Shown: in pieces, positions 1,456 through 18,694 of the stretch
Layout: each line of letters begins with the position of its first letter
Position numbering within the stretch: position 1 is the stretch's first letter
Origin: an uncultured Blautia sp.
GTDB taxonomy: Bacteria; Bacillota; Clostridia; Lachnospirales; Lachnospiraceae
Reading direction: 5' to 3'
DNA length: 18,694 nucleotides
Assembly: GCA_934364795.1 (NCBI GenBank)
Contig: CAKRMK010000049.1
Location: forward strand, 1-18,694
Program-made: the position numbers and the translations under genes
Notes under the pieces: model-generated
The model's input: the letters and a program-made list of their open reading frames with translations, nothing else
Database searches by the model: none
Told to the model about the DNA's origin: nothing

Positions 1456-1514
1456 CAAAAACTTCCACAAACTGTAACGCAGATTTTGCAGAAAGTTTTT
1501 TGGGGCACGCTCTA
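1456..1514 (+). repeat. Half copy of the 166-bp palindromic element
   Basis: About 59 bp align with the right half of the copy at 18407-18572 (core words CACAAACTGTAACGCAGAT, TTGCAGAAAG, CACGCTCTA), with one deletion in the T-run. The right end has GGGGCACGCTC, as in the 8285-8450 copy. The left half and left arm are missing; dgt ends at 1444. It is diverged and probably an old, truncated copy. It fills most of the dgt-dnaG gap. Confidence 0.8.
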
Positions 1515-4527: not shown

Positions 4528-5304
4528 ATGCAGTTATCCTTAAGATTATCTGCAATTGCAGATATGGTGACGAAAGGAAACCGGCTGGTAGATGTGGGAT
4601 GTGATCATGGATATCTGCCGGTGTACCTGATACAGCAGAAAAAAATTCCATCCGCCGTTGCAATGGATGTGCGAAAAGGTCCCCTTTCCAGGGCGAAGGA
4701 GCACATCAGACAGTATGGACTGGAGAAATACATACAGACACGGCTTTCAGACGGTCTTAGTGCCCTTGAAGCCGGTGAGGGCGATACTCTCGTGATAGCA
4801 GGCATGGGAGGCCCTCTTATGGAAAGAATTCTCACAGACGGACAGTCTGTGAGAGATTCTTTTTCTGAACTGATTTTGCAGCCCCAGTCAGATATTCCCC
4901 ATTTCCGCAGATATATCCAGTCACAGGGCTGGAAGATCGCAGAAGAGAAAATGGTGGAAGAGGACGGCAAATTTTATCCCATGATGCGTGTGATAAAAGA
5001 AGAAAGAGAAAGAACAGAATCTTTGGGAGCAGAAATCAGTTTGGCTGATGGCACCGGACAAGAGAACGCAAAAGGTGTAAATGCAGAAGCTCCATATACA
5101 CTGGCAGAGGCTTTTGGTGCATTTTTACTGGAAGAACACAATCCGGTGCTGTACCGTTACCTGCAAAGAGAGGCCAGGATCCGTGAGAATATTTTAAAGC
5201 AGCTTGAGGCAGCGCCTGTGGCTGAAGCGGTAAGTGCACGTATCCGGGAAGTAAAGGAGGAAGCACAGCTGATAAGTGCTGCGCTGGCAGAATATGAAGG
5301 TTAA
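4528..5304 (+). CDS. trmK: tRNA (adenine(22)-N1)-methyltransferase TrmK
   Basis: 258-aa class I SAM methyltransferase. Known TrmK makes m1A22 in the D arm of tRNAs. Visible motifs are motif I VDVGCDHGYLP (21-31), the acidic AMDVRKGPL (45-53), AGMGGPLM (91-98) and the family signature LQPQSDIPHFRRYI (117-130). The C-terminal part is charged and helical, fitting the family's coiled-coil extension. ATG 4528 follows AAGGAG at 4516-4521, which overlaps the end of the sigma gene. The 3' end overlaps the next gene by 11 bp. The order sigA-trmK-nif3 matches that in Bacillus (yqfN-yqfO). Confidence 0.93.
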   Translation: MQLSLRLSAIADMVTKGNRLVDVGCDHGYLPVYLIQQKKIPSAVAMDVRKGPLSRAKEHIRQYGLEKYIQTRLSDGLSALEAGEGDTLVIAGMGGPLMERILTDGQSVRDSFSELILQPQSDIPHFRRYIQSQGWKIAEEKMVEEDGKFYPMMRVIKEERERTESLGAEISLADGTGQENAKGVNAEAPYTLAEAFGAFLLEEHNPVLYRYLQREARIRENILKQLEAAPVAEAVSARIREVKEEAQLISAALAEYEG

Positions 5305-7859: not shown

Positions 7860-8212
7860 GCATGAGCAGGCCAGGTGATCGCGGCTGGACAGACGAAAGG
7901 GTTCAGACGAGGAAAGTCCGGGCTTCGCAGGGCAGGATGCCGGATAACGTCCGGTGGAGGTGACTCCCAGACCAGTGCAACAGAAATAAACCGCCATGGT
8001 TTCCATGGTAAGGGTGGAAAGGCAGTGTAAGAGACTACCGCCGTCCTGGTAACAGGCCGGGCACATGTAAACTCCATTCGAAGCAAGACCGAGAAGAAAG
8101 CGATACGGCTGCCCGTCGTGCTTTCAGGTGGGTCGCTTGAGCCTTCTGGTAACGGATGGCCTAGACAGATGATCACTCAACGACATAACCCGGCTTATCG
8201 GTCTGCTTGTGC
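7860..8212 (+). ncRNA. rnpB: RNase P RNA, class A
   Basis: Catalytic RNA of RNase P, which matures tRNA 5' ends. Universal blocks are present: GAGGAAAGTCCGGGC (from 7909), ACAGAAATA (from 7980), CTGGTAACAG and GTAAACTCCA (around 8046-8077), and CGACATAACCCGGCTTATCGG (8181-8201). P1 pairs GCATGAGCAGGCC at the 5' end with GGTCTGCTTGTGC at the 3' end, allowing wobbles, which sets the boundaries to within a few bases. The GTAAACTCCA region resembles the ancestral class A form rather than the Bacillus class B form. It has its own promoter and terminator. Confidence 0.96.
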
Positions 8213-8237
8213 ATTAAATTAATATGATAAAAAGAGA

Positions 8238-8284: not shown

Positions 8285-8450
8285 CTAGAGCGTGCCCCCA
8301 AAAGGCTTTCTGCAAGATGTGCGTCACAATTTGTGGGAGATTTTACCCAGATGAGGGCGTCGTAGCGGGCTACGTAGGCCGAATTTGGGTGAAATATACC
8401 GCAAAGTGGGGCGTGCAGATTGCGGGAATGATTTTGGGGGCACGCTCTAG
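8285..8450 (-). repeat. 166-bp palindromic element, full copy
   Basis: Begins CTAGAGCGTGCCCCCAAAA and ends with its exact complement, a 19-bp perfect inverted terminal repeat. The interior also folds on itself: CACAATTTGTGGG...ATTTTACCCA (8325-8361) pairs imperfectly with GGGTGAAATATACCGC...GTG (8385-8408), and CGTAGC-GG-GCTACG forms a central hairpin. The whole unit is thus one long stem. It matches 18407-18572 in the opposite orientation and at the same length. There is no ORF of note. TA borders both ends if the element is taken as GAGCGTG...CACGCTC. It sits just after the rnpB terminator. Confidence 0.9.
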
Positions 8451-10477: not shown

Positions 10478-10636
10478 GCGATGCGTAGGATCGCATATTT
10501 CCGCTACGCAAACGTAGCCGAAGGCGGAGTTCGCGGTTCCCGCGAAGCGATGCGTAGGATCGCATATTTCCGCTACGCAAACGTAGCCGAAGGCGGAGTT
10601 CGCGGTTCCCGCGAAGCGATGCGTAGTATCGCATAG
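10478..10636 (+). repeat. 69-bp tandem repeat, 2.3 copies, hairpin-rich
   Basis: Units at 10478-10546 and 10547-10615 are identical; a 21-bp partial third unit (10616-10636) has one G-to-T change. Each unit holds three inverted repeats: GCGAT/ATCGC around GCGTAGG, GCTACG-CAAA-CGTAGC, and TTCGCGG-TTC-CCGCGAA. In the first unit the first hairpin extends to a 13-bp perfect stem (10470-10482/10490-10502). The period is a multiple of three, so reading frames stay open. One on this strand runs from ATG 10481 to 10636 (51 aa, repeating AMRRIAYFRYANVAEGG) after an AAGGA; it is probably not a gene. The unit is GC-richer than its surroundings. Confidence 0.92.
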
Positions 10637-18406: not shown

Positions 18407-18572
18407 CTAGAGCGTGTTTGAAAAATCATTCCCACAATCTGCACGCCCCACTTTGCGGTATATTTTACCCGAATTCAGTTGCCGTAGCCCGCTACGGCGC
18501 CCTCATCCGGGCAAAATCTCCCACAAATTGTGACGCACATCTTGCAGAAAGCCTTTTTCAAACACGCTCTAG
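18407..18572 (+). repeat. 166-bp palindromic element, full copy
   Basis: Begins CTAGAGCGTGTTTGAAAAA and ends with its exact complement (19 bp). It is the same length as 8285-8450 and closely similar throughout, but in the reverse orientation. The central hairpin is CCGTAGC-CC-GCTACGG. Five bases of the left arm differ from the other copy (TTTGA instead of CCCCC), and the right arm carries the matching five changes. It lies between the ppk terminator and the tRNA-Glu terminator. An 84-aa frame through it is not a real gene. Confidence 0.9.
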
Positions 18573-18634: not shown

Positions 18635-18694
18635 CAGCCAGTACGAGAATCGAACTCGTGTTTTCGCCGTGAGAGGGCGACGTCTTAACCCCTT
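18635..18694 (-). tRNA. tRNA-Glu(CTC), 5' end cut off by window edge
   Basis: Read on the minus strand: D-loop end GGGGTTAAGAC, anticodon stem TCGCC/GGCGA with loop CTCTCAC (anticodon CTC), T arm ACGAG-TTCGATT-CTCGT, acceptor 3' strand ACTGGCT and discriminator G (complement of 18635). CCA is not encoded. The 5' acceptor strand lies outside the window. Confidence 0.93.

Follow-up and report, generated by a model that had tools for sequence, protein, structure and literature searches.

Among the described systems that come closest to the element studied here is RUP of pneumococcus, a 107-bp repeat that is tightly folded with its terminal inverted repeats (TIRs) paired and that has IS630-like ends at TA (PMC3049150, PMC2229807). 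ERIC/IRU of enterobacteria is a 127-bp repeat, RU-1 (PMC2759123), whose RNA fold reportedly acts on upstream transcripts in one of its orientations (PMC2229807), and for Correia/NEMIS of Neisseria, a MITE, it has been proposed that an RNA stem-loop is a substrate of RNase III (PMC2229807). REP sequences with a GTAG tag are 20–40 bp long and have at one end a GTAG or CGTC motif that is left unpaired (Di Nocera 2013, PMC3733652). Lastly, insertion sequences of the IS427 group are about 850 bp long, contain two ORFs and generate mostly 2-bp duplications (PMC3281130).

In this study, we followed up a palindromic element found in a window of 18,694 nt from an uncultured Blautia sp. RUP (with IS630-Spn1) resembles the Blautia element in being short and without a gene, in having TIRs like those of a resident IS, in its TA target and in its tight fold. 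However, the partner in Blautia is of the IS5/IS427 type, homologous interiors occur with several different ends, and the one-strand fold, the covariation and the G.T excess described below have been measured for the Blautia element alone. ERIC/IRU belongs to another host group; for the Blautia element an IS partner is known, and strand bias has been measured for the Blautia element alone. The likeness to Correia/NEMIS, both being MITEs with a stem-loop, is one of description and not of compared sequences. With REP sequences the element shares a palindromic structure, many copies and an intergenic location; membership of the REP/BIME class, which calls for a 20–40-bp hairpin with an unpaired tag, was rejected for an element of 160 bp whose GTAG is paired inside an apical stem. 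The partner IS is similar in size to the IS427 group, for which a 2-bp duplication is described (PMC3281130), and likewise has two ORFs in different frames, whereas the MITE is without a transposase and has only its ends in common with the IS. No published account of the element was found in the literature searched, in which subscription papers were mostly outside coverage, and an earlier description is possible.

We consider it probable that the whole is best explained as a MITE that is moved in trans by an IS5-family transposase and that carries a strand-specific structured module. In its ends, target and carrier the element is, judged from sequence, a MITE of a known kind, and we infer its mobilisation by the IS transposase.

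Two full copies, bordered by CTAG, are present in the window at 8285–8450 on the forward strand (copy 1) and at 18407–18572 on the reverse strand (copy 2), and these are mutually inverted and 87% identical over 167 aligned nt. According to a boundary rule taken from a near-empty site in genome G002, the mobile unit is 160 bp long (8288–8447 and 18410–18569) and is flanked by a duplicated TA within CTAG (8286–8287 and 8448–8449 for copy 1). The perfect 19-bp terminal repeats read CTAGAGCGTGCCCCCAAAA in copy 1 and CTAGAGCGTGTTTGAAAAA in copy 2; the TIRs of copy 1 (8288–8303 and 8432–8447, forward strand) are of a CCCCC variant and the arms of copy 2 are of the TTTGA type. Both copies fold end to end (z = -11.6 for copy 1 and -11.0 for copy 2; none of 200 shuffles equalled either), with an apical hairpin, GTAGCGGGCTAC in copy 1, at 8362–8373 (+) and 18484–18495 (-) that occurs too in elements with other ends. 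Sequence alignment and folding bear out the preliminary description, which had reported two inverted 166-bp copies at these positions, perfect 19-bp inverted repeats with arms that differ between the copies and agree within each, and an interior that pairs with itself and ends in a hairpin. The inner mismatches of the window copies are chiefly G.T and G.A, and for this reason the element folds well on a single strand only. A further copy, at 1456–1514 (-), is incomplete: one half, with an arm of the CCCC type, is present and the other is lost.

Copy 1 is located directly after a terminator-like hairpin downstream of rnpB (RNase P RNA, class A; 7863–8213, +), and copy 2 is flanked by a ppk-like gene and by a tRNA gene that is cut by the window end (18635–18694, -). 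Both RNA genes lie outside the element, and the names of window genes other than rnpB and the tRNAs were given by eye. Neither in the window nor in 15 further loci did the element have an Rfam match above the gathering score; in those loci two other RNAs (L261, L262) were found, both away from the element. At E values up to 1, only miRNA models appeared, far under their gathering scores. Two further repeats were observed in the window. At 10478–10635, ahead of a gene that by eye resembles folC, there are two perfect 69-bp tandem units and a partial third, rich in small palindromes (GCTACGCAAACGTAGC), whose letters resemble the apical hairpin, a likeness that need not mean kinship. Positions 1–96 and 156–251 are direct repeats with 88% identity, the second of which overlaps a tRNA-Leu gene (135–221), the single tRNA called there.

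The element is dispersed well beyond the window. A pattern scan of genome contigs returned 13 stretches, 12 of which come from records with Blautia in the title, while the other comes from a Clostridia bacterium MAG (G004). Among 64 genus-group genomes this MAG is also the best match for the DNA of the ppk-like gene (82% over 664 bases), which makes the host a relative of Blautia. With copy 2 as the query, matches were obtained in all five genomes searched, and the complete Blautia-group chromosome G041 contains at least 23 near-full copies and shorter ones besides, 40 of its 114 candidates having been scored. The fetched loci held 100 distinct places with matches of at least 135 aligned nt, of which 99 were usable after removal of a truncated duplicate (L014); this set comprises the window, 14 genomes and one phage-labelled record and, being made up of chosen loci, is a sample of the existing copies. 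The possibility that only the window copies exist, named in the preliminary description as one that would undo its reading, is contradicted by the many copies in Blautia-group genomes. An element of 160 bp, without a transposase gene and dispersed in many copies, qualifies as a MITE, and this identification, put forward earlier as a resemblance, is upheld by the copy number, the IS-matched ends, the TA duplication and the near-empty site. Internally deleted forms of about 77–90 bp, of at least two deletion types and with both ends retained, were also seen (L220, L226, L227, L003 at ~5001–5077 and L232 at ~1501).

Plasmid records contained no match to copy 2 or to the element L272. Four phage records matched copy 2 and two matched L256; the four phage-labelled records inspected are unverified fecal scaffolds without annotation. 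In viral contigs, a strict 23-base interior pattern gave no match and a 19-base end pattern gave two. As a separate observation, both viral-contig ends at 31–50 and 5893–5912 of L360 lie within one palindromic element with the shared core, and the contig may therefore be a circle or a piece of host DNA flanked by two copies.

Insertion would occur at YTAR with duplication of the TA. The TAs were preceded by a pyrimidine and followed by a purine in 86 of 92 copies, and TA was present on both sides in 75 of the 92, seven decayed or truncated copies and the duplicate having been removed from this set. One copy in G041 (L300, ~16314) reads GACAGAAC-TA-element-TA-GTGG, and the site in G002 reads GACAGAAC-TC-GTGG, where the matching right flank lies at a contig end and is just 43 bases long, and where the target is TC instead of TA. 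This site fits an element of 160 bp plus a 2-bp duplication, with one base different. The place of a second G041 copy (L300, ~8378) is occupied in both G002 and G001 by about 755 other bases, with no clean empty site. Of 30 relatives, 21 had a readable rnpB–pyrI spacer, which is 39–97 nt long in 14 and 133–823 nt long in seven, as against 359 nt in the window; none of the 21 ortholog loci had a match to the element at E 1e-2, and these sites are too diverged to provide an exact empty site. Of the empty sites in relatives that were called for in the preliminary description, one near-empty site, one base off, was thus obtained, and no exact one.

The partner IS measures 885 bp from CTAG to CTAG (888 in L298) and contains two ORFs in different frames, and its ends read GAGCGTG adjoining TA. 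NCBIfam NF033580 together with Pfam DUF4096 and DDE_Tnp_1 assigns it to the IS5 family, and it is, by these domain predictions and its likeness to the IS427 group, an IS5-family element of the IS427 type. An insertion sequence with such ends bordered by TA had been anticipated before but left unassigned; the search for its transposase has now been positive. In G041, 14 places have the left end of the IS, with DUF4096 above the cut-off in 13 and partial in the 14th. The IS ends are identical to the MITE ends in G041 (TCTGAAAAA), G166 (TTTGAAAAA) and G243 (TTTGAAAATT), with one full MITE copy read for each of the latter two (L236 and L240), so that the ends match in three of the five genomes in which both were read. 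In G001 the two IS ends differ from each other (mixed), and in G025 a one-ended IS fragment (AAAAAT) differs from the MITEs of that genome (AAAATT) at positions 18–19. One IS copy of G166 (L298) also has differing ends, TTTGA and TCTGA. The IS was readable at both ends in 12 of 22 loci.

The orfA of the IS was detected at E 1e-10 or better in seven of 299 family genomes and the left end in five of 60 genus genomes, and the DUF4096 domain is present in three of 11 MITE-bearing genomes, many of which are without a detectable IS. Among 64 Blautia-group genomes, no IS with CCCCC ends was found; a CCCCC match in a viral contig was rejected as an IS end, since it falls within an ORF predicted on a phage-like contig and looks like chance. 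IS copies are bordered by CTAG, and in four cases (the one-ended fragment L082, L285, L287 and L297) we observed that an IS had inserted precisely at the CTAG terminus of an adjacent element or IS, so that element and IS ends themselves serve as targets.

The preliminary description had drawn attention to arm changes that are compensated within each copy, and had offered three causes for them, namely selection for the folded form, arm-to-arm conversion, and mobilisation that needs matching ends. In the 99 copies, arm positions 11–15 are identical on both sides in 79 (49 TTTGA/TTTGA, 28 TCTGA/TCTGA and two CCCCC/CCCCC), a number that none of 5000 shuffles, in which right arms were exchanged among copies of the same genome, attained (mean 67.5, maximum 77), and the covariation that was to be tested is borne out. 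When agreement was scored over positions 11–20, no signal was obtained (33 of 99 against a shuffle mean of 31.9), since position 20 is outside the repeat and differs between the arms in most copies. The remaining 20 copies are unmatched, with six TCTGA/TTTGA, one CCCCC/CCCCA, one CCCCC/ATTGA (L180) and 12 others that are mostly one-base differences or decayed ends; arms that disagree, which had been named as evidence against maintained pairing, are therefore real for this minority and do not hold for the set as a whole. CCCC-type ends are found in one of 64 genus-group genomes, G004, at four places, every one of which is the end of an element copy. L232 of G004, a 90-bp deleted form, has CCCCC at both sides, and L180 of the same genome combines a left arm of CCCCC with a right arm that is a TTGA-type remnant. 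In G097, L258 and L272 have interiors that are 91% identical and arm blocks, CTAGTCCTG and ACTGACACG, that are each internally matched; this repeats, on other ends, the compensated change seen in the arms of the window copies.

One way to obtain such arms is template switching in the quasi-palindrome, by which a change in one arm is copied to the other. It would be in keeping with the five-base block change (CCCCC) on both sides, with L180, which looks like an intermediate, and with the differing but matched arms of the G097 pair. Conversion may contribute to the paired arms; as their explanation we think it unlikely, since it should erase the interior G.T and G.A mismatches, several of which are kept in all six clusters of copies, and the arms track the IS ends in three genomes. 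The agreement of the arms and the match to IS ends in three of five genomes make matching ends for mobilisation the best explanation, and of the three causes this one is best supported, both by agreement within copies and by the IS ends tracked in G041, G166 and G243. Accounting for the arms in this manner, an IS5-family (IS427-type) transposase would recognise 16-bp ends of the form GAGCGTG(TTTGA/TCTGA/..)AAAA and move the MITE in trans. Both ends would have to suit the transposase of the day and only copies with matched ends would spread, which is why the arms would change in pairs.

Selection for the folded form, the first of the causes, is supported for the interior on one strand, and this strand-specificity had escaped the preliminary description. 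The strand corresponding to the forward strand of copy 1 folds better as RNA in 89 of 89 distinct copies (mean -93.0 versus -60.7 kcal/mol), and with the ends removed the same strand is again better in 89 of 89, by a mean difference of -29.3 kcal/mol; in 300 simulated neutral full-length palindromes, the strand difference had a mean of -0.7 kcal/mol (SD 10.3, minimum -27.5). Without recourse to any fold, in-register pairs in 85 copies of 166 nt are 71% Watson–Crick, 10.6% G.T and 2.1% A.C, and among the mismatches G.A was counted 828 times versus 101 for C.T, and G.G 192 times versus two for C.C. In 35 interiors, 95.2% of cells are paired, compared with 37–51% for slid partners, and changes on both sides were found in 20 of 48 inner pairs (shuffle mean 11.2, none of 500 as high); these shuffles ignore relatedness and the structure was derived from one sequence, the double changes being the sturdier measure. 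Tandem G.A pairs are present at 69–70 x 97–98 in all six cluster consensuses, and at 32–33 x 134–135 and 73–74 x 93–94 in five of the six.

These data bear on the view that the element is an ordinary palindromic MITE, formed by an inverted duplication that subsequently decayed, with paired arms that reflect transposase fit alone. The ends, target, copy number and IS partner are all typical, and RUP, also a tightly folded element, has IS630-like ends at TA (PMC3049150, PMC2229807). However, decay predicts G.T and A.C in equal numbers, as is seen in private mutations from Watson–Crick pairs (16 to G.T and 15 to A.C), whereas the consensuses of the six clusters, each of at least three copies, have G.T at 17 inner positions and A.C at two (Fisher p 0.007, which is a guide only since the clusters are related). 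Moreover, 20 of the 48 inner pairs have changed on both sides and interiors are common to different ends, and we regard the ordinary MITE as a distinctly unlikely account of the whole. The private mutations are without bias, and therefore the fold seems to be selected in spreading lineages; we read this as selection on spreading copies with a probable relaxation after insertion. A strand-specific mutational process, such as deamination of C on one strand, could also be imagined, in that C-to-T change on the well-folding strand can yield G.T. Private changes at paired positions of that strand comprise 38 G>A and 26 C>T, with no C>T excess, so that mutation bias does not explain the consensus, and we give this explanation scarcely any credence.

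Compared with an ordinary MITE, the interior is unusual, as a strand-specific, covarying, RNA-like rod. The best reading of it, in our opinion, is that of a strand-specific structured RNA (or ssDNA) module on exchangeable transposon ends. The interior would then be a module in its own right: one strand forms a hairpin shaped like a rod, in which G.U and tandem G.A pairs occur together with the apical stem. Comparison shows that this hairpin is kept by compensatory change between lineages while it drifts in individual copies.

The orientation of the element relative to neighbouring genes is non-random as well. It is opposite to that of the right neighbour in 48 cases and the same in 18 (p 3e-4), opposite to that of the left neighbour in 36 and the same in 24 (p 0.16), and between tandem genes antisense in 23 and sense in nine (p 0.02); these counts come from a codon model trained on 13 window genes and applied to 93 copies (89 sites after deduplication, the rest uncalled), and they depend on crude gene calls. 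For the most part, then, the well-folding strand runs antisense to its neighbours, as if it were harmful within an operon transcript, and a simple role in host mRNA is for this reason poorly fitted. Gene orientation could also stand for orientation to the replication fork, in line with the proposal that what is conserved is one DNA strand that folds in replication or transposition, in the manner of REP-like or HUH-like elements. Folding as ssDNA gives the same asymmetry, copy 1 reaching -52.8 versus -36.2 kcal/mol with the same strand favoured, and RNA and ssDNA are therefore indistinguishable by folding. A folded single DNA strand is a possible conserved form. Yet the partners found are DDE transposases (IS5, IS630), and DDE transposases generally use double-stranded ends; that folding of a DNA strand is what has been conserved strikes us as improbable. 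An RNA role when the module is transcribed would be its most likely function. The transcribed well-folding strand would act as RNA and aid spread or tolerance, which would be the simplest cause of the features described.

Related interiors are also found between ends of other kinds. With a covariance model built on the interior (R1), matches were detected in at least 35 of 299 family genomes at E 1e-4, with at least 14 at E 1e-20 or better, and in at least three of 391 class genomes at E 1e-5, G002 among them; these counts are lower bounds, with eight to 11 candidates scored per genome under strict filters. Among the weaker matches are many elements, about 160 bp in length, whose ends are unrelated to these but match each other, such as CTAGTACA(T/G/C)CGTTTCG, TAGTGTACTGACACG, ATACCCGAGAGCGG, GGAACTGGCGTGAAAT and more. 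By BLAST, L246, with ends GGCAGACTGTTCCGAAA, is 76% identical to copy 2 of the window over 135 positions (E 5e-19), a second element in L250 is 78% identical to L254 over 126 (E 1e-19) with different ends, and L258 is 80% identical to L282 over 103. The likeness of the window's A-type interior to other types is short (21 bases between L246 and L257) or detected by the model only, and since the model was used to find most of the related elements, the apical stem that they share is partly a selection effect. All of 22 other-ended elements, drawn from 38 loci of which 14 were without a GTAG..CTAC core and with L250 left out, fold better on the strand matched by the model, and the second L250 element, measured separately, is again better on the core strand (-67.6 versus -41.1); in-register counts are noisy for these elements because their loop lengths differ. 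In L321 (1455–1545), tandem half-elements with CTAGTACA-like ends were seen 45 bp apart.

No parent IS was found for the CTAGTACA-type ends, either in L304, L314 and L328, whose ORFs include no transposase by eye, or in one pattern scan of viral contigs. For some MITEs, an IS630-type carrier is putative on the basis of end similarity. The viral-contig locus L371 contains a 1285-bp element in which two ORFs for an IS630-family transposase lie between identical 28-bp ends, CTAGTGTAGTGACATATTGATATTTAGC. After CTAG, the ends of MITE L272 agree with those of L371 at 18 of 24 positions and with a second IS630-like end (L369) at 20 of 24, versus one of 24 for the IS5 end. Two copies lie directly side by side in G339 (L250): the ends of one are IS630-like (17 of 24) and those of the other are of the IS5 type. 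A broader reading, which is possible and which we offer tentatively, would be that of a mobile structured-RNA module of Lachnospiraceae, in which one class of 160-nt rods, folding on one strand, swaps matched ends (IS5/IS427-type, IS630-type and several unassigned types), the fold is needed for spread and the RNA, rather than the transposon, is the lasting unit.

MITEs are usually viewed as passive debris of insertion sequences. In the Blautia element, recent copies appear neutral while spreading lineages keep the fold, and selection for spreading may thus be separable from later decay, which makes the function of a MITE RNA testable in a gut commensal. Furthermore, the homologous interiors between the ends of unrelated transposase families suggest that a non-coding unit can change its carrier.
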